Shown one piece after another: positions 1 to 63,730 of a stretch of DNA of 64,000 bases. Both the position numbers and the translations under genes were made by a program. Below the pieces are notes generated by a model. It did not search any database. It was given only the letters and a program-made list of their open reading frames with translations, and had not been told where the DNA came from. The number at the start of each line of letters is the position of its first letter. Positions within the stretch are counted from its first letter, which is position 1. Source of the DNA: Rhizophagus irregularis (taxonomy: Eukaryota > Glomeromycota > Glomeromycetes > Glomerales > Glomeraceae); NCBI RefSeq assembly GCF_026210795.1, contig NC_089456.1, positions 1,056,501 through 1,120,500 on the forward strand, given 5' to 3'.

Positions 1-3000
1 TTTACTAACAAAATCTTCGGTAAAATAAAATAAACTTATTTCAGCCTTGCATTCATCTATACATTCCCAAACTCGATCAATGGAATCCTCTGCTTGGTGT
101 AATTCATTTTCTAACCATTCAATGTTTGCTTCCTTGTATTTCGATGAGTTCTCAGTAATGGATAATGATTTTAATGCAAGCTCAACTTTCTCGTACTGAT
201 TGTACCTGAAATCACAAATTCAAATGAGTTTGGACAAAGGAAAGAATTTATTGTAAAAATTTTAAATCAAACGTTGCAAACCTTAATTCATCTTCCAGCT
301 CTAAACAACTGTCAATCTCATCAGTATCTGAAGGATGATCAGTAATTGTCTTTTTCAATCGATTCTCGATTACTTCCATTTTACTTTGCAGCATAATCAA
401 CTCCGCAATTATATCTACTGTCTGACCTTTCAAAAGAATATTATACTTGCTAACCGCTTTTTTACCTTTCTCTTCCATGAGGGCATGACAAAAAATAGTC
501 ATATCATTATATATCTCATTAAGTATTGTGTCATAATCCGAACGGAATTTTACTCGTTTATAAACCCGGCGAAACCAGACTTGGATTTTTCTGGCTGCTT
601 CTTGAGTCTTGGGACAATTATGCATCTGACTTAACCAGACTTGGACCTCTTCAGAAAATGCAAGTTGCTCAAAAGTGTCTGTCAGGTCAGTATTCTTATC
701 ACTACTTTCGTTACTTTGTGATTGAGATTGATTTTTTGAGATTACATTTCCTCCAGCAACTACTGATGATTTAATCTGCTGAAGAGCAGAGCGGAAATCC
801 TTAGCAGAGTTATATGTAAGTTTTATGATGCCATATTTCTCATATTTCTCCCATTTAGAAATTTTTGATGGTATATCTTCCAATTGGTAATAAACAATAA
901 TCAAAGAATCACAGCCTGTTTCTTTAAGATCATTGTACAGAACATTTATGACTGACTCCTTAGATTTCTGTTTTAGATATTTTTTAATCTTTGCGGAAGA
1001 AACTTTGTTATTCAAGTATTTGAAAAGACTAAATATTCTCGTTATAAAAGTGGATTCATTTAAACCGATGAGAATCAAGAGCCGTATTAGTCGAAGAATA
1101 ACCAACAAGTACAACTGTTCCTTACAAATCAACAGCTCAAGAAGCTGTTGAACTTGGTCAAAGGAATTCTTAACTGCAGTTAGATAATCTTTTCTGTTAT
1201 ATTCTGGAAAGAGAGGCATTGCAGAATATGTGTCAAAGTAATTAAACAGATAAGATCGAGGAAGGAAAAAATCACAACATCTAGGACTAACTGCAAAAAT
1301 CAAAGATGTTGCAAACTCCATAAGGGATACAAGGTCACCAAAAGCATCAGATGTAACCAAATTGACTTTTTGATTTTTGCTTATAGCATATTGAATAAAT
1401 ACTTTTATGTTTAAGATTGCTTCGATCACATGGTTAAATTTAAGATGGTGAAAGAATAATGAAAGTCGCTTTCCAACCGGAATTGCTCGGTGATATCCAT
1501 TATGGACATCGCGGTACTCAAAGCCAATAGGTAAATTGTTAGGATTTAAAAGCTTTGTTGTTTTTGACATTTCCCAATCGAACGTATTAATACCCCATTT
1601 ATCCTTCAGCTGCTGAAAAATAAACATGCATTTTAGCATGATTTCAAAATTGCCGACATTATTATTAAACTCACATAACCATCTCTTACGAGCAATTTCA
1701 ATAAACTCTTTACGTGTGCAATCAGAAAGATTAGCAAGCACCATGCAAGTGACTTCCGGACAGCTTATCTGTGGTGATTGATAACGAATATGAAATTTAA
1801 CTAGACTTTCAGCCCACCACCTTTGTAAGCCACGAACTTCTATACTTTGTTCTTTAAGAAGTCGATGACGATACAACACATCCAACTTTATTATTACAGT
1901 ATATTGAAGGAATGCTAGTTCCAGACGTTTGTGCAAAATTGTTGGTGTTGTAATTACATGATGATTTTGGCAATTTTGCTTCAGACAAGATTGATAAGAT
2001 ACAAAATTGTAGCAGATTTGAGAACTTATATTTGGAATATTCCTCCCCTTCTGATTAGATTCCAGGATGAGCTCAGAAATATACGAAGCGAGGAATTTTG
2101 AAACTGTCTCGTATATAGTATCTACGTTGTAAATATATCGATTATTCGTGATTTCTGTTACATCTTTTTTTGAGTTGTTGCCGTGCATTTCGTTTATGAG
2201 ATGAACTAATGGATTACCAAAACAAATTTGACGTTTTTGTGGACAGTCACTTCGCTTACAAAAAAGATGCTCTCAATAATTTTGTTGCCATTGTATTGTG
2301 AAGCTGTTATTGAAGGGAAAACTAAGTCACATAGCCTTAATATATTTTGTAACCTAATTTTCCAATACTCTGCCTGAATATTAGATTTTGGAACCTGCAA
2401 CCATATGTTTATCGCATGAAACTCAATAGTAAGCTTTTTACGACGTCTAAAATATTGTATACACTCGTAAGTCTTATTGATATCCTTATCTAAATAAGCT
2501 GTATATAAATTATATTCTTTCATCAAATCGTTCCATTTTTCAGATTTCCTTATCAATTGTGATTCCATTTTCACAATAAACTCGTTTATCTTGGAAAGGT
2601 ATTGTTTCAGGGTACTGGAATCTGTAATAGGTACCATTGTTTCATTCAATATATTAAATCTGCATATATATAAGAGGAACTCTATTATCTCTTTGATATC
2701 TTCATAACTATTAATTAATTTTTCATAAATTTCGACAGGCTCCTCAAATTTACCATATAAAATGGCAGTATTGTGATAATGAAGTTTAATGTGATGAGCA
2801 ATATTGCAATATGTCTTTTTACTAATTTTCTGTTTGTATCTTTTAACAATAAATAGGTAAATATTAGAATATTATGTTATTTTCACAAATCAATTAAATA
2901 AATGAATTAAATAAACTCACTTCAATATAAACTTAATTGCAATTTCATAAAAGAGACTATCTTCAAAGAAACCATCTTTATAAGCAAGAGCAGCATAATC

Positions 3001-6000
3001 ATATTTCTCTGCCTTTTCAAAATATTCACCAGCCCCGTGCCACATATTGGCCTTAAGATAACTACGCGCAGCAGATTCAAACATATTATGTTCGACATAA
3101 ATATCGCCAGCTTCTTTGTACATGCCGATATCCTAAGAATTATTACAATTTTGTGAGTATCAGCTTAAAAGTAATGAATGCTAATTTAAAAAACCAAAGT
3201 ACATGTTATTAAAAATTCAAGCTCTACCTGATAGCATAAAGCTGCTTGGCCTGGTCTTGAACACTCTTTGAAAGCATTAATAGCATTAAAGAAATTGGAC
3301 TTTATAGTATCATCATCGGAATCATTTATAGAATCCTTAGCAATCTGTTGAAGATAATATGCATTGGCTAGTTTGCGTCTCTCTTCATTTCCACTTTTTT
3401 CAAAGCAAATAATAGCCTAAAAGTAATAATAATATAACTTATTTAGTTAATAATGATACAAGATATTTCAAAGTATATTACCTGTTCATATCGCTGCTCT
3501 TCAAAGAGATTTTTTCCTCGTTGATTCCATTCATATGATCCACTCTTTTTAGCCAAATTGGATACAATTTTGCGTTCACTTTGAACTATCTTGATTAACC
3601 CAAGATTTTTCCAGTGTTCTCGAATTGGCTTACTATACTCAATATTTTCGTCACATATCCAGAGACGCTGCCGAGCCCTGGTCACTGCGACGTAAAGATT
3701 TTTGAGCTCTGAGGAAAGGATGTAATGTTTCTCGTGAGAGAAGGTCTGAACACCCTTAGAATTTTTGCTTGAAATAGAATCAATTACTCGCCACTAAAAA
3801 ATAAATAATAACTAATAAGTGAACTATCAATAAGAGATATGAGACCAATAATATATTATCATACCTTTCGACAAGCAGGTGAATCAGTAAAGAAATTATA
3901 TATAAGCACATCATTAAACTCCATACCCTTAGCTTCAAAAACAGTCATTACCAACCCAGCTTTATTAATAAGTTTTTTCACTTGTATTTTGGCTTTATCG
4001 TCACGTACAATAATGACCTGATCAGCACCAAATTCAATGAATTGATTTTCGTCCAAATCAACGTGTCTTTGCTTGTTATGGGTATAATCATCATCAAGTT
4101 CGCTTTCCTCGCAATCCATTAAATGTTCTTTTTGGAACCCATCAAAGAGAATAGGTCGCGGACCACCAACCTTACTACGTTCACGTGATAGTTTGTCAAT
4201 TGAATTAGGAAAAAAGTGCTGAACAAGATCAATTACTGAAGAGGCAAGCTGAAGGATCCCATTATGAGATCGGTAATTAATATCTAGCTCAAACCGGTTT
4301 GGGTTTATATCAATATTACTATGGTTAATTTTGACACGAGTACGTTCCCAATTATACAATAAGGCATGTAAATCTATATTAACATAAAAAGAATAAATTA
4401 TTTGTTTTAAAATAGAAATAATATTATTAATTGGTAAAGTACTATCTATGTACATACCCTCGAATCGAAAAGAAGACCCTCGGGCAATGCATTGTGCTAT
4501 ATCTCCAGCTAAAAAAATATTATTGACGCGATCAAAAACTTTCAAGATAAGTGTTAAATCCACAATTTGATTATCCTGACATTCGTCAATATATACTTCA
4601 TGAATACGTGGACCACCGAGTGCTTTTTTCTTGGCAATACGTAAGATAGCTAACGTTCTGCAAAGTAGGATTTCAGGTAGTAAAATTAAGCTTAGATATA
4701 TATATTACTCAGAAACAAAGAGAATTTTATAAATACCGATCTATTGAATCATAATGGCCATTTCGCGCCTTTTTTGCTTCATATTTTTCAAATAAATCAT
4801 AAATTCGATCCCGATCAAATGAAAATACCGGGTATTTCTTGATACTGATGTTCCTATAATCTTCTCTTGATAAAAAATTTACTTCGGGTTTTGAACCCTA
4901 AGTAAAATGAAAGATTGAGATAGAAAAAATATATTAAATATAAAAGAAAGCATGTGACAAATAATTACTAAAATACATGCCTTAATAATAGAAAATTCAG
5001 CGTAAACCAACTCGCAATCAAATTTACAATTAAGACAAGGCCAATACTTTTTCCGAAAGACATTATAATCAACAAAATTCGTTGTTTTAATGGAAGATGA
5101 TGACTTTTGGTAAAAATTTTCATTTGTATCAATTTCATCTGCTGCATCTAAATTTCGTTGATTTATGACGTTCTTAATGCCATAAGTTTCTCGAAGCATT
5201 TTAGAAAACTTGTCGTAAGTTATGAACAAAGGGAAATGGTGATCGGCAAGCTTATGGAATGAGTTTGGAATATTATCATCTTCATCTCCTTCTTCGAACA
5301 TTGAATCAATTCTATCTGCTTCTTCTTCTTCTTTCTTTCTTCTATATTCATTTAATTGCGTTATTGAAATCTCTTTTCCGGCAAGCATCGCAGACTCTAG
5401 CAACTTGTTAAAATATTCCTTTACTCGATGACAAAGATTGGGGCTCAATGTAATAAATATTTGTCTTTTGTGGAAAACCTTGTCATTGGATGGCGTTTTA
5501 CAGAGTTGACTATTTAAGTATGAAGCAATCTGTCTAAAAACAATACATGTAGTCTTTCCAGTCCCTTGATAACAGTTATGTAATATAGAACAATAGCATT
5601 GTATTTATTTTCTGGTTACAAAGATTTGAAACTGAACCAGTCACTAACCTGATCGACCAATAATAATCGCTGATGTAGGATTGTTAATGATATCGTATTC
5701 TTTCTGGGACACCTGAAAAGTGAAATTAAGACCACCCAAGACAATCGACTTGTACAAGTTCTACAAACAAAATAATGCATTATTATATAAATTCTAATAT
5801 AAATTCGAATTTTAATAATTTAATTCATATTTTACCCATGAAAAGGTAACAAACTTATTTGTAACAAGCATATTATGAACCCCTAGCAATCTCTCATCCA
5901 TCAGTGAGTTACTATGCAATCCGTTTTCAGGAGATCCCATTTCTTCATTTCCTAAGGTCTTTGGTGAAATTACATTATCTTTATCTGCTTGTCGAGTCAC

Positions 6001-9091: not shown

Positions 9092-11048
9092 GATAAATAA
9101 AATTTTAGATTATTAGTTAGAGTTTAAAATATACTTTCTGACTCATTATTATTTTGGTCATATGTTAATGCGCAAAATTATGAATGAATTACCATAAGTT
9201 CTTCTAGCTCTACATACTTTGGTTACGATGGTAAGTTCTATGATTTAAGTCTAACTTTAGTAAAATACACTAATCAGTTTAACTTTCTAGCTCTCGTATC
9301 CTACTTACGAAATTATAAAGTCATTACCGTGATTTCTGGAACTGAATCGAAATGTCTTTTGTTTCTTCCTGTCTGTAAATTCTGTATGATTTTGGTCTTG
9401 CTTGGACTGCGGGAAACGACAAACCTTTTAGATCAAGAAAGTCATACTCTCAAAATACAAGTTGCGTTTTTTTAAAGGAAGGTAGTAACTCCTAGATACT
9501 TCGAACATTCGCCCGAATTACAGCTTGGTAACCACATCAAATCCTCAGCTCAGGGCGACCAAACCTTGTGTTGTTGTTTGTAAATACCTTCTTTATCAGT
9601 GAATAAAAAATATAACATTTCCTCCCAAAATTTTTAATAGTCAAGGAAACGCTACAAGATGAATAGTTTGATAATGAAACCTTATATAATATATAAAAAT
9701 AATATCAAGTAAATACAAATCATTAATTGATAATAAATACCGTACAATAAATGATTAAATACATTAAGTTTGTTAAATTCGTAATAAATACATTTTCACC
9801 AATTTGTGGACCAATAGTACCTTATGTATAGCACCTATCTACCAGAAAAATCAGCAAGAGTATCATATTAAAAATTGTACAATACGTAAAAATATCATCA
9901 TATAATGTAACCTTCAATTCCTCTAAATTTGTATCATTCATGGTACTATTATGACTCCGCTATACGGTATACACAGCATAAATACTAAAATTATTTCAAT
10001 GATTCTTTTTTGGATAATGCCGCTGGATCATTAGCAGCAAGTAAATTTGTATTTCAGGTGCCAAATATGTTTTTAATCCTTTATTGTCTTAGAGCTTTTA
10101 ATATAGATCATTTGCCCGCAACAAAAAATATACTTTCACATTTCGGCAGATTAGATCTGTCGCATATAGCGGTGGTGGTGATAAAGTAGTGGTATTTTTT
10201 TTTTATTGTGTATTCAATGTAACAAATCATCATGCGAATAAATTAACATCTAGGTCTCACCTCTTGTCAAATCAAGAATCTTGATGATGAAAGTGACAAT
10301 GAAAGTCATAAAAAGAAAAAAAGCGAATCTCTACTTCACAACGAGTTTGTAAAGAGATGTACAGTATGTAGCTGATGAAACGAAGAAAATTAATCTGAAC
10401 CGGAATTGGTACAGAATTTGTTAACGATAACGATTCTACGGAATCTTCGACCTATGACTAAGTTGAAGACAAAGATAGGTTTAAAGACATACTCAAAAAT
10501 GAATAACTCGAACAAATGGACTAAATGGACTCTTTCTATGGGTATACATACTATAAGTTTGGTATTAAATAAATGAGCATATCTTTACTGAGTCCAGTCA
10601 TGTCAATTTTTAGCGCAGTCATGTGAATTTTGATGCAGACCGAATTTAAACTTTGATCGGACTTCGCTACCATCGGACTGAGTTAAATGTGCTAAGTCCT
10701 GTGATTTTGATCAATCTGGCCGAACTAAATTTACATGTCTGATCCATATTTTATGTTTTATTGTATTTAATAATTATTTAATAGTTGTAGATTTTGTAGA
10801 TTAAAACAATAAAAAGATATTATTGGGCGTTTTTTATAAAACTAGTAACGATTTTGTTGATCATTTGTTGATCATTTATTTTAAATTTATTATAAATTTT
10901 GTCACGAGATTTTCTATGGAAATCATTTCTCAATTTGTTATTAAAACACCTGCTGAATTGCCTCGAAATTGAAAATCATTTCCCTTTTTATAAAAAAATT
11001 TCCTTTTTGGTAAAAAACTCTCAGATTAATCTTATATAACTTTATGTC
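9092..11048. other. Intergenic, no gene seen
   Basis: AT-rich sequence with a few less AT-rich patches (9340-9590, 10250-10700) and many stops in all frames. I could not recognise a gene or an ordered repeat here. Confidence 0.5.
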
Positions 11049-11143
11049 AATGACAATGACAATGAAAAAACTTCTTCCCCAAATTATTAAAAACATAACA
11101 ATTCCGCAGTAAAAATAATATTTTTACTCAGTTTTTTATTAAT

Positions 11144-12655
11144 ATGGAAGATAATAGAAAATATCCTATAGCCGAACATAAATTTCCTTATGGGTCCGGC
11201 GACGAATATAATTTTTTATTACTAACATATCACCATTTTATAAAATTTTGTGAAAGTCTAGCTTCTTCATTTTTTTCAGGTCATGACACAGAAGTTCAGC
11301 GTAATATACTGCGCTCTAATTTTGGCCTTTCAGATGAAGATATTAATAGTTGGAAAGAAAGGGCTTCACGCTACAACATGTCAACTGAAAGTTTCACATT
11401 TTTTCTACATATAGCAATATCCTCTGCGGTGGATGGTTTCCAAGCACGAAGGAAAGAATTAGAAACTATTGTAGATCACGTGACTAAATATAGGGAGACA
11501 TCTAGCAAAAAGTCCAAAAAAATCGACAAAAAAAAGAAAAAGTCAAATAAATCCAAACACCGTTCCATAATTAATTCTGACGTAGATTCAGATGAATTAG
11601 ATGATTTTCTTGATAAGGCAAATGAAGAGTTCGCTTATTTAAATTTTTCTTCCGATGATCGAGATTCTAATATAAATCGGCCGATCGCGACAGCCTCTGG
11701 ATCAAAAATGGATGTTGATCATCCGATTAATACAAATGAGTCATCAAATACGGTCTTACAATCGGTACCTAATAAGCCTCAGTCGCAGCCTATACAAATA
11801 CCGGAGAAAAGTATTACCGATTCAACAAAGTCTTCAAATAAAAATAAGAAGTTGAATAAACACCTTATCGAAAAAGTTATTACAGGTCATAAGCCAGCTG
11901 ATGATGATACATCAAGAGTTAGAGATATTCTGGTTTATGACGTCCCAGTATCCTGGACGGCAGAATATATTCTGCAACAGTTAACGCTGTGGGGAAAGCC
12001 TATCGATATTCAGATGAAACAACAAAGAAAATATCAGACTGTTCGTTTGAAGATAGAGTTAAGTACCTTTCGTCTTGCCTAATTTGAAGTTAATGAAAAT
12101 CCTGTGTGGACAACAGATTTAGGGGGGATACCGGTAAGATGGTTTCCAGCAAGGTGGACTCTCAAAGAACGAAAACAACGTGAGAAATTCCAAGCTACGA
12201 TTAGAAACATTCCAGATTCTATGACGTATGCAGCCTTATGGGTCGACCGTCTCCCACATACTTTTCTTTCTTCGGTTCGAGGGTTGAAAAGTTTTAAAAT
12301 TATTCAAACAGCTCGGGGTGAACGTAAACTTATTGGTTATTTCGAAAAGTGGGTTGATATGCGGAACGCATTAGATAATCAATTCGTTTGGGATCATCAG
12401 TACCTATCTTGGAACCGATACGAACCTCCGACGCAACAAACAAGGTCGCATGGTAGTAATGCCAACAAGAACCAAGGAACTTCAAGAAGTCAATTGACTA
12501 ACAAACATCAACGAAATTCAAAGAATTTGAAGAAGAAACCAGAAGAGACGAAGTCTGAAAAGCCAAAGAAGCAAAAGAAAGACAAGTCCCGTAAATCATC
12601 GAGATCGAAGGTCTTAGCGGAAGTTATAGATGTTTTGCGTAAATTAATAATTTAG
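11144..12655 (+). pseudogene. ORF1-like RNA-binding-type protein in the retrocopy, one internal stop
   Basis: An ATG-started frame of 312 codons ends in TAA at 12080-12082, then continues in the same frame for 190 more codons to the stop at 12655. Joined across the stop it would be about 503 residues. Order of parts: an alpha-helical N-terminus, a Lys/Ser-rich linker (residues 115-145), an acidic/Ser stretch, then an RRM-like beta-alpha unit (DILVYDVPVSWTAEYILQQL). After the stop come GGIPVRWFPARWTLKERKQR, FKIIQTARGERKLIGYF and a Lys-rich tail. I recognise the last part as the kind of domain found in ORF1-type and reverse-transcriptase-associated proteins of AM fungi; this is from memory. A single C-to-T change (CAA to TAA) would explain the stop. 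The frame after the stop has no ATG near its beginning. Confidence 0.7.
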
Positions 12656-12962
12656 GTTTTAGAATTGAGGGTAAAATAGTGGTTCATAGGTGCCAATTTA
12701 TTTTTATTTAAAATAATTTTTTATTCCTCGTTATTTTATCCATTTATTTTCTGTTTGTTCGCCCTTTAGGGTTGATTTATTTTTGTTTTTGTTTTTTTTT
12801 CCCCTTCCCCTTTTTATGGTCATATTCTTTATCCCATTTTTTAAGCCAGTAGGTCTTTAAATATTCGTTATTTTTAGATTAGCTGTTGTAGGTTACTCGC
12901 TGTTTACTTTTGTATTTGCATTTGTTAACTTACATAACCATGTAAATTTTTATTTTCTATTC

Positions 12963-13008
12963 AATAAAGTGTGATCGGTTTGCTTAAAAAAAAAAAAAAA
13001 AAAAAAAA
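12963..13008 (+). terminator. Polyadenylation signal and reverse-transcribed poly(A) tail
   Basis: AATAAA lies 17 bases upstream of a pure run of 23 A. The run immediately precedes the right-hand target-site duplication, so it is a copied RNA tail rather than a chance A-run. Confidence 0.8.
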
Positions 13009-13259
13009 TGACAATGACAATGAAAAAAACTTCTAATGCCAACTTTTCGCAAAAACTCTTCCTGTGCCACTAAAAGTCCCTGTTAAATTGTTGCATCATT
13101 CAATATTTGCATAATTTCATTTTTTTGTTGATCATTAAAATTTCATAAAATATTGCAAAAAAATAAAAAAATTGTAAAAAAAACGGTTTGGCATTTTTCC
13201 ATATAAAATTATAAAAAAAATAACACAAAAACGTTTTTTCTTCATTTTTTATTTTTTAA

Positions 13260-14770
13260 CAAAAAATGTCAAGACTGACGTTTTTAATTAAAAAAAACCA
13301 ATATTTTTTTGATTTTTAATCACAAAAATGTCAAGTCTGACGTTTTTAATTAAAAAAATCATTTTTTTTGATTTTTTAATTACAAAAACGTCAAGTCTGA
13401 CGTTTTTAATTAAAAAAAAACCAATATTTTTTTGATTTTTATTTTTTAATCACAAAAATGTCAAGTCTGACGTTTTTTAATTAAAAAAATCATTTTTTTG
13501 ATTTTTTAATAACAAAAACGTCAAGTCTGATGTTTTTAATCAAAAAAATCATTTTTTTTGATTTTTTAATTACAATAACGTCAAGTCTAACGTTTTTAAT
13601 CAAAAAAATCATTTTTTTTTGATTTTTTAATTACAAAAACATCGAGTCTGACATTTTTAATCAAAAAAATCATTTTTTTTGACTTTTTAATTACAAAAAC
13701 GTCAAGTCTGACGTTTTTAATTAAAAAAAACAATGTTTTTTTGATTTTTAATTACAAAATTCCAACTGCCAAGTCTGACATTTTTAATTAAAAAATCAAT
13801 ATTTTTTTGATTTTTAATCACAAAAACATCAAGTCTGACATTTTTAATTAAAAAAAACCAATATTTTTTTTGATTTTTAATCACAAAAATGTCAAGTCTG
13901 ACGTTTTTAATAAAAAAATCATTTTTTTTGATTTTTTAATTACAAAAACGTCGAGTCTGACGTTTTTAATTAAAAAATCATTTTTTTGATTTTTTTAATT
14001 ACAAAAACGTCAAGTCTGACGTTTTTAACTAAAAAAATCAATTTTTTTGATTTTTTTAATTACAAAAACGTCAAGTCTGACGTTTTTAACTAAAAAAATC
14101 AATTTTTTTGATTTTTAATTACAAAATTGTCAAATCTAACGTAAAAAATAATTTTTTGAATCATAAAAATGTCAAATCTGACGTTTTTAATTAAAAAATC
14201 ATTTTTTTTTATTTTTAATCACAAAAATGTCATGTCTGACGTTTTTAACTAAAAAAATCATTTTTTTTTTGATTTTTTAATTACAAAAACGTCAAGTCTG
14301 ATGTTTTTTAACTAAAAAAGTCATTTTTTTTTGATTTTTTAATTACAAAAATGTCAAGTCTGACGTTTTTTAACTAAAAAAGTCATTTTTTTGATTTTTT
14401 AATTACAAAAACGTCAAATCTGACGTTTTTAATTAAAAAAATCATTTTTTTGATTTTTAATCACAAAAATGTCATGTCTGACGTTTTTTAACTAAAAAAG
14501 TCATTTTTTTTGATTTTTTAATTACAAAAACGTCAAGTCTGACATTTTTTAACTGAAAAAGTCATTTTTTTTGATTTTTTAATTACAAAAACGTCAAGCC
14601 TGACGTTTTTTAACTGAAAAAGTCATTTTTTTGATTTTTTAATTACAAAAACGTCAAGCCTGACGTTTTTTAACTAAAAAAGTCATTTTTTTGTTTTTTT
14701 AATTACAAAAACGTCAAGTCTGACGTTTTTAATAAAAAAATCAATTTTTTTTATATTTAATTATAAAAAC
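13260..14770. repeat. Satellite of about 25 units, each made of two palindromes
   Basis: Roughly 60-base units are repeated head to tail with small indels. Each unit has a core palindrome ACGTCA-AGTC-TGACGT with A/T-run extensions on both sides. This is followed by an A/T palindrome in which AATTAAAAAAATCA faces TGATTTTTTAATT. Core changes are mostly single transitions (ATGTCA, TGACAT, TGATGT). Units near 13741-13780 and 14101-14160 are the most diverged; the last complete one ends near 14740. ACGTCA/TGACGT is the half-site of CRE/bZIP factors, so the array would present dozens of half-sites; binding is inference. There is no coding potential. It is not a CRISPR array, because there are no unique spacers. 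Confidence 0.9.
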
Positions 14771-15075
14771 GTTTGATGACCCAACCCAAAATTTTCGAGT
14801 CAATCTGACAGTATAATGATTATAACTCACTAATAATTACCAAGTTACTCTAGTTTAAATAAATATTTTTTATACAATAAAATGGGTTTAAAAACTTATA
14901 GCAAAAATTTAAATGCATTTTAATTTTATTGAAACAAGAGGTTCCTAGCAATTTATACTATATCATCATTATCTCATTAAATATTTAATAGTAAAAAAAA
15001 AATTTTTTTTTTAATAACTCTCATTATAAAGCGAACAAGCTTTCAAGTAATTTTAAGCGAATCACTGGACCGTAT
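14771..15075. other. Intergenic spacer after the satellite
   Basis: AT-rich sequence with no gene seen. It ends at a perfect hairpin at 15076. Confidence 0.5.
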
Positions 15076-15821: not shown

Positions 15822-15926
15822 AGAATTGATATTACACAATTCAAAGGCGCAAAAGAATTGATATTATACAATTCAAAGGCGCAAATAATTGATATTACAC
15901 AATTCAAAGGCACAATTAATTGATAT
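15822..15926. repeat. Short tandem repeat, about 32 bp x 3.3
   Basis: The units read GAATTGATATTACACAATTC followed by AAAGGCGCAAA, with small changes. They are repeated three times plus a partial fourth. Each unit contains a small palindrome GAATTG...CAATTC. No gene is associated. Confidence 0.8.
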
Positions 15927-16161
15927 TACCACCTGATGCACGCATGATTTCATTTGCAATACAACAAAATTTTTAAAAATATTTTATATAATACAATATA
16001 TATATATAATATAATATAATTGTTGCTTTTGCGTCATTGAAGCAGATGACACTGCACACAATGTGATACAAGGATTTGTCCACTCGGGAATTGGAACTGG
16101 GCGTACCAATTGAATTGAGCAAGAACGATCTCAGAAATTTCCATTGTTCATTTATAATGAC

Positions 16162-42320: not shown

Positions 42321-42568
42321 AATGGGTTTTGTTTTTTATCGCACCCGTGAAATATCGCGCGAATCGTCAAAATCCCGAAATGTCCCGACACCCCCATAAT
42401 ACTGATTTTTCTTTCTTTTATTAATAAATTTTCAAGATTTTTCATTTCGGTATTTTGAATTCGGGATTATGAACTGTCGGGCTTATGAAATGTCGGGATT
42501 ATGGCAATTCAGGATTTTGACGTTTCGGGATTTAGAGTGTCGGGATAATGTACCTTACCAAACCCATT
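42321..42568. mobile_element. Inverted-repeat element (GGGTTTTG/ATCGCACC family, copy I)
   Basis: Terminal repeat AATGGGTTT (42321-42329) faces AAACCCATT (42560-42568). Next to the left end is GTTTTTTATCGCACCCGTGA, which recurs in the copies at 59.1 and 61.7-62.0 kb. Inside is a nested palindrome: CGTCAAAATCC (42365-42375) with GGATTTTGACG (42512-42522), plus several (T)GTCGGGATT/TCCCGACA phrases. No coding capacity. Confidence 0.7.
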
Positions 42569-62954: not shown

Positions 62955-63190
62955 TTGTGTAATAATTTTGACACATGAATAATGCTAAATAAGCCATTGA
63001 GGTTTTAATGTTTTGAACCTAAACGGATTACCATTCACGATCAGAATTTCGTCATAATATTTTGACATGAATAAGTCATTGAGGTTTTAATGTTTTGAAC
63101 CTAAAAGGATACCGACGATCAGAATCACGTCATAATATTTTGATATGAATAAACCATTGAGGTTTTTAATATTTTAAACCTATAAAGGAA
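62955..63190. repeat. Tandem repeat, about 78-98 bp x 2.7
   Basis: Units contain CCATTGAGGTTTTAATGTTTTG then AACCTAA and end GATCAGAATN(T)CGTC. They start near 62955, 63054 and 63132, the last partial. Each unit holds a small AGGTT...AACCT palindrome. Confidence 0.8.
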
Positions 63191-63194
63191 AACC

Positions 63195-63730
63195 ATCCAA
63201 AATCCCGAAAATTCAAATCCCGAAATTCAAAATCTCGAAATTCAAAATCCTGAAATTCAAAATCCCGAAATTCAAAATCCCGAATCCCGACACTTATTAT
63301 ATATACTTCGCAAAAATTAATGAATTTATTATTAATGATTAAAAGTTATTATTCTGAATTTATTAATCTGAAAAAAATAAATTTTATTTTGTGAATTTAT
63401 AAAAAGTAATTTTATTTTGTGATTTATAAAAAAAAAAGAATAAAATATTAAATAGAAAAAAATAAAACTTTTTCTTTTTAAAAAAAAAATTTTGCTTTAT
63501 ATTAAATAAAATTGTTATTTTTTTTGAATTGCTTTTTAATATATTATTTAAAATCATTTTTTTTTAAATTTTTTTAATTTTTTTTTAATTTTTTTTTGTA
63601 TTCATTTCATTATAATATAATCGTCATTCGTCAGGAAGACAATAAGTGTCAGGATCTGAAATTTCTGGATTTTGTCTGTCAGGATTGTGGAACGTTGGGT
63701 TTTCGGGATTCTGGTTGTCGAGATTTCGTA
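63195..63730. repeat. CCCGAAATTCAAAA tandem repeat within a larger imperfect inverted repeat
   Basis: On the left, five to six units of about 15 bp (ATTCAAAATCCCGAA with variants) run from 63198 to 63285 and end ATCCCGACACTTATT. On the right (63640-63725), the other strand has the same vocabulary ending ATCCTGACACTTATT. The two halves face each other across about 350 bp of T/A-rich sequence. No coding capacity. Confidence 0.7.

Follow-up and report, generated by a model that had tools for sequence, protein, structure and literature searches.

The window analysed here, a stretch of 64,000 nucleotides from Rhizophagus irregularis (NCBI RefSeq assembly GCF_026210795.1, contig NC_089456.1, positions 1,056,501 to 1,120,500, forward strand), contains an array of tandemly repeated palindromes in which CRE-type half-sites recur. 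The question raised by this locus is whether such an array is a satellite in its own right, a regulatory sequence or a part of something else. The array is very probably the internal tandem repeat of a non-autonomous, HINE-like rolling-circle transposon of the Helitron clan, one that would be mobilised in trans by RepHel proteins, inserted at TT and altered in length block by block.

Structure of the array and of the element that carries it

The array has a period of 60 bp, and 24 units were recognised in it by the rule of no more than six mismatches to a 25-base core. No such match arose in any of 20 mononucleotide shuffles of the array, nor elsewhere on the + strand of the window. Folding places two neighbouring hairpins in one rotation of the unit, in agreement with the tandem satellite of two-palindrome units described in the initial annotation. 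A single unit, taken as single-stranded DNA, has a folding energy of -15.6 kcal/mol (relative to dinucleotide shuffles, z -4.9) and the core by itself has a z of -5.0; the hairpin potential that had been ascribed to the whole array holds for the subset of units that was folded. The annotation had also assigned the full CRE-like motif to each of about 25 units. This number is close to that recovered, but the exact 16-mer ACGTCAAGTCTGACGT occurs only five times, and thus the full motif is missing from some units. Dozens of half-sites had been reported as well, and 12 ACGTCA and 17 TGACGT are present in exact form, but many others are degraded. Scans of the window for tRNA (ARAGORN, bacterial code) and for Rfam families returned no matches.

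Rather than standing alone, as first supposed, the array is enclosed in a mobile element at 10801-14853, which is split in the window by a retroposed insertion at 11076-13008. The element consists of a left module, a microsatellite, the array and a short right module, and its termini are 5' TT/AAAACAATAAAAAG and 3' TTACTCTAG/TT (the slash marks the boundary); both termini are sharp, and the sequence flanking them varies between loci. The retroposed insertion noted beside the array in the initial annotation is real, but both lie inside this larger element, which was missed. The features are as follows.

10801..11075, + strand: left (5') module with terminal TT/AAAACAATAAAAAGATATTATTGGGCG, then the first part of the hexamer minisatellite (AATGAC/AATGTC)n; sharp boundary, differing flanks
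11051..11075, + strand: left copy of the target duplication of the retroposon, 25 bases, recurring with one extra A at 13009-13034 (by eye)
11076..13008, + strand: retroposed insertion with poly(A) tail and ORFs at 11099-12079 and 12083-12652; not part of the element
13009..13244, + strand: right edge of the hexamer repeat, plus a middle module conserved in other loci, with a homologous stretch in the middle of a relative that codes for RepHel
13245..14772, + strand: palindromic tandem array
14773..14853, + strand: right module (81 bp) ending in ACCAAGTTACTCTAG, then TT; same end point in other loci
14799..14809, + strand: hairpin GTCAATCTGAC in subterminal position (44 nt before the 3' end), which corresponds to the array core GTCAAGTCTGAC minus one base

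Distribution of copies and insertion sites

The unit is not unique to this locus, as a search of the genome (146.7 Mb, 32 contigs) recovered dozens of copies. At least about 40 array loci are dispersed through it, a lower bound, since 40 of 242 candidates were scored, and 20 of the approximately 40 matched, including that of the window, were read with their flanks. The right end lies within the stretch read in 19 of these 20 loci, and in all 19 the element stops at the same base, TTACTCTAG/TT, after which the sequences differ. The left end lies within the stretch read in 17 loci, the window included; 16 of these ends are intact and start with TTAAAACAATAAAAAG, and the remaining one (L027) is missing 16 bases. 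A sharp left boundary with differing flanks was observed in the window and in 15 of the 16 other copies having a left end. In L012, L013 and L018 no left end was found within the stretch read, and matching left ends lie farther out on the same strand in L013 and L018. Between the two ends, the sequence from 13007 to about 13198 recurs in 19 other loci with 96-99% identity over 177-194 bases. The 15 copies measured are 2135-4988 long, later insertions included. The best 40 of 125 candidate left ends are 98-100% identical, suggesting that these copies, at least, are young.

In two loci (L016 and L010) the joined flanks are continuous in related sequences elsewhere, which provides two empty sites of the form N/TT. 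A third empty site, GTAATG/TTTCC, comes from a RepHel-coding relative that has entered a LINE. Insertion of the array element is therefore at TT according to its two empty sites, where the TT could be either duplicated or owned by the element, and no target duplication longer than TT was seen at the empty sites of the two copies and the one relative. Such sites bear directly on the alternative that the array is an independent local satellite into which transposons have inserted. The retroposon adjoining the array would accord with that history; however, ends and flank breaks fall at the same bases across the copies read, and both empty sites lack the whole element, so that this reading is already contradicted and can be considered extremely improbable.

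No terminal inverted repeat of the element was found. Between the first 130 bases of the 5' end and the last 102 bases of the 3' end asymmetric or subterminal inverted repeats fall short of 11 bases, the longest inverted match with at most one mismatch being 10 bases in an ungapped search; a gapped AACTAG/TAAC match between the ends is visible by eye. The 3' end folds no better than its shuffles (z 0.15); its lowest-energy structure includes, and its centroid lacks, a weak stem that stops 14 nt short of the terminus.

Relationship to Helitrons

The Helitron Rep domain (PF14214) has 90 matches in the same genome, some loci being represented by several pieces. The most informative locus is on C12, where an array element contains a LINE, the LINE contains a 12-kb RepHel element and the latter contains a gene that, judging from the look of its protein, we take to be hAT-like. 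The RepHel element was considered as the autonomous version of the array element and rejected, because its junctions reveal a separate, related element nested in the LINE. Its helicase ORF matches PIF1 (PF05970, E 1.8e-26). Pfam support for its Rep ORFs is modest: the one scanned has weak matches to other Rep families, and the ORF adjoining it contains a PF14214 fragment (35.5 bits). No AP endonuclease domain was found in three scanned ORFs of this relative, whose frames are split. The 5' end of this relative aligns to that of the array element with a score of 111.5 (best of 100 mononucleotide shuffles, 60.5), the relative also has a hexamer repeat, and the stretch following the repeat aligns with a score of 67.5 (best of 200 shuffles, 44.0).

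A second connection is made by the 3' end. The motif CTCACTAA-N(12-20)-CTAGTT occurs at 100 places genome-wide versus 15 for the reversed pattern; the end is of the array type at 36 places (in one case with an altered base), of a sister type at 12 and of other types at six, while the two types seen beside RepHel account for 34 and 12. Rep matches that reach 300 aa and 80% identity occur at 12 loci; ten of these have the motif on the same strand, 1.4-5.1 kb downstream of Rep, the exceptions being C4:2704100 and C1:6823844. One of these ten Rep-linked ends was read apart, and has no array, and one was read with its whole element. Among the copies with the motif downstream of RepHel, one extends over 8.6 kb by its coordinates (C16:808889-817464). 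None of the copies read has both RepHel and the palindromic array enclosed by one pair of ends. At seven places, according to their coordinates, array matches in opposite orientation adjoin 5' ends like that of the RepHel relative, and thus the array seems to be common to related elements; in one 3' flank among these seven no clear end was seen.

Relatives that have a homologous 5' end, or with which a 3'-end motif is shared, encode Rep and a PIF1-like helicase. This places the element in the Helitron superfamily, which is defined by such autonomous relatives, and indicates that the array is carried by a non-autonomous, HINE-like Helitron. RepHel proteins of related autonomous copies would recognise the ends of the element in trans, the element would be copied by rolling-circle replication and inserted at TT, and the array would be carried as cargo, which would explain the same unit order at dozens of sites.

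Comparison with known elements

The closest layout is that of Cg_HINE of the Pacific oyster, in which, according to the accessible part of its description, a left module ending in a microsatellite is followed by a spacer, a satellite-like array and a 60-bp right module at a TT site (PMC7492417). Layout, TT site, genome-wide dispersal and the lack of any target duplication reported in that part are alike in the two elements. In contrast, the right module is 81 bp here, the subterminal inverted repeats of normally 11-12 bp in the oyster have no counterpart found here, the microsatellite is a hexamer rather than mostly a 4-nucleotide repeat, and the palindromic unit and the 3' end CTAG are particular to the present element (PMC7492417, same part). 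DINE-1 and the other Helentron/HINE elements of Drosophila and mites, as far as the consulted portion of PMC4067079 describes them, also exhibit TT preference, boundary Ts, central repeats and a microsatellite, and are likewise non-coding derivatives of RepHel elements; they differ in possessing subterminal inverted repeats, and the AP endonuclease given there as a marker of Helentrons is the domain that was not found in the three ORFs scanned of the C12 relative.

FoHeli of Fusarium oxysporum, of the Helitron2 type, is similar in its RepHel-coding capacity, non-canonical ends and fungal host, but in the available text its ends bear asymmetric inverted repeats, start with TCAG/TGCCT and finish with ATTTT/CTCCTGT, all different from those found here (PMC5148889). 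As quoted in the same source, canonical Helitron1 has a 3' end of the form CTRR then T, which the CTAG of the array element fits, but a 5' TC and an AT site, in place of which the array element has 5' TT-AA and a TT site. The inverted repeats by which Helentrons/HINEs and Helitron2 are recognised were not detected in the ungapped search, while the microsatellite in the left module, the central tandem array, the short right module and the TT target are those of a HINE. On sequence grounds the element may thus be filed as a non-autonomous member of the Helitron clan working like a HINE, with the Helitron subtype left broad.

Satellite-bearing transposons are already known from animals, of which this is a further example: a dispersed satellite array is revealed as the cargo of a transposon, and the HINE-type layout of animals is probably extended to a fungus. 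In the part of the R. irregularis transposable element paper that was seen, Helitrons are mentioned twice and the word satellite is absent (PMC11075540); the seen part of PMC4522978, on the topic of fungal Helitrons with minisatellites, describes no array in a Helitron.

Variation among copies of the array

The 20 copies contain 645 units, with 23-64 units per copy (median 29), and length therefore differs between copies at different loci. They offer natural replicas of one array in which the growth and shrinkage of a hairpin array can be studied. By eye, the unit variants follow one common order in the copies, and the longer arrays repeat blocks of 8 units (L012 and L023) or 12 units (L012). 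These observations suggest that the array travelled with the element as its cargo and changes as blocks of several units are duplicated or lost. The array may have originated by slippage at hairpins in a single-stranded intermediate, and the hairpin-assisted expansion put forward in the initial annotation is possible.

In the palindrome arms, CpG transitions at 4 of the 20 arm positions account for 443 of 774 changes in the 645 units. Units with more than four mismatches include some shifted by indels, which add false changes; without them the transitions are 432 of 623 in 614 units, and among 73 distinct units (four mismatches or fewer) 69 of 127. All of these figures count copies rather than independent events, and invariance at the T-run positions may be only apparent, because the search masks changes in run length.

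One reading of the hairpins is that they are selected as structures, for instance as Rep-binding or termination signals, with the arms kept complementary. For each of four unit types of these elements, the one unit folded is more stable than its mononucleotide shuffles (z -3.6 to -7.6), pairing (G-T included) is possible in 5966 of 6450 cases in the arms, the core resembles the 3' subterminal hairpin of the element itself, and 16 of the 17 units changed on both sides at the most variable pair keep a T-A pair. However, these 17 double changes compare with 56.7 expected if the arms vary independently, there are nine versus 11.5 expected among distinct units with four mismatches or fewer, and the other nine arm pairs have none. 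Compensatory change, for which a test had been proposed, is therefore not seen beyond chance, the pattern is close to the random arm mutation named as the contrary outcome, and the deficit argues against selection for pairing. The 3' ends of the two RepHel-coding relatives read also lack the GTCA-TGAC hairpin. Selection of the hairpins is thus unlikely.

The suggestion that the array serves as a regulatory decoy or boundary, its clustered half-sites binding putative bZIP proteins, is highly improbable. The 29 exact half-sites in 1.5 kb are what recommends it, but most half-sites are degraded, apparently decaying mainly through the CpG transitions above, the array sits in a transposon in all 20 loci read, and a related copy (C12L) fills the same slot mainly with hairpin units free of the motif. 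With arm changes that are non-compensatory and over half of them CpG transitions, selection on hairpins or on bZIP sites is not indicated, and at the level of sequence the regulatory role would appear to lack support.

Retroposon and LINE insertions

The retroposon of the window lies at the right edge of the hexamer repeat of the element. Its two ORFs have no Pfam match, and L018 contains two matches to this retroposon next to the array. The retroposon has no clear similarity (best protein E 0.047) to an 8.2-kb LINE that is found at C5, C10, C12, C14 and C19 (read in L033-L036, L037, L039 and L040) and that in its C10 copy encodes endonuclease, RT and RNase H domains. This LINE lies between the shared ends of three long copies (C5, C10 and C12) and was considered as the carrier of the array; this was rejected, since the hexamer repeat around the LINE and its poly(A) tail place it inside the element. 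Exact matches to the LINE 3' end number 14 in the genome, of which nine reach ATGNCAATG hexamers (ATG(A/T)CAATG) within 30 bases and five have no hexamer by that exact pattern. It looks as if the LINE prefers the minisatellite of this transposon as its target; a literature search on microsatellite-targeting LINEs gave no match.

Other hairpin arrays and the 3' end of the element

Shuffled versions of the right module matched the array core as well as GTCAATCTGAC does in 3 cases out of 20000 when a Markov scheme was used and in 4 out of 20000 for mononucleotide shuffling. The 3' hairpin is either the source from which the array grew or a worn unit contained in the end. A fuller version of the former, in which the unit is the amplified 3' subterminal hairpin of the element (stem GTCA/TGAC), the array consists of end signals duplicated during rolling-circle replication and the LINE subsequently came to land preferentially in the hexamer repeat, is tentative and rather improbable.

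C12L, a copy on C12 with the sister 3' end, holds an 81-bp array of 24 copies of AAAAATGCCGAAACGGCATTTTT-type hairpins, followed by 80-bp and 92-bp arrays, which may be part of a nested element, and by a few CRE-type units. In the DNA examined, the median folding energy of 47 CRE-type arrays is -24.3 kcal/mol per 100 nt, and the least stable of them reaches -12.2. Among 21 other arrays with periods of 40-150, the four strongest are the three types of C12L and one in an insert of the C5 LINE; two further arrays overlap the CRE range, namely L012 261-1698 (-15.3) and L038 2226-2356 (-13.2), the latter inside a RepHel element, and the remaining 15 fold more weakly. In this small, non-random sample strong hairpin arrays are concentrated in transposons.

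Short tandem arrays other than the palindromic one occur in the window at 62988-63284, 42446-42550 and 15824-15929, and those at 62988 and 15824, when folded, gave no strong hairpin. The array at L012 261-1698 lies upstream of the array element and comprises 26 copies of a 55-bp unit with a near-palindrome, GGACATTATTGTCC. The insert in the C5 copy of the LINE (L033, about 3130-4120) is a small inverted-repeat sequence, presumably hAT-like, with TAAAGCTCTAA ends and an 8-bp duplication, ATATTGAT, and it holds an 81-bp hairpin array of its own, AAAAACGTTGCGCAACGTTTTT.
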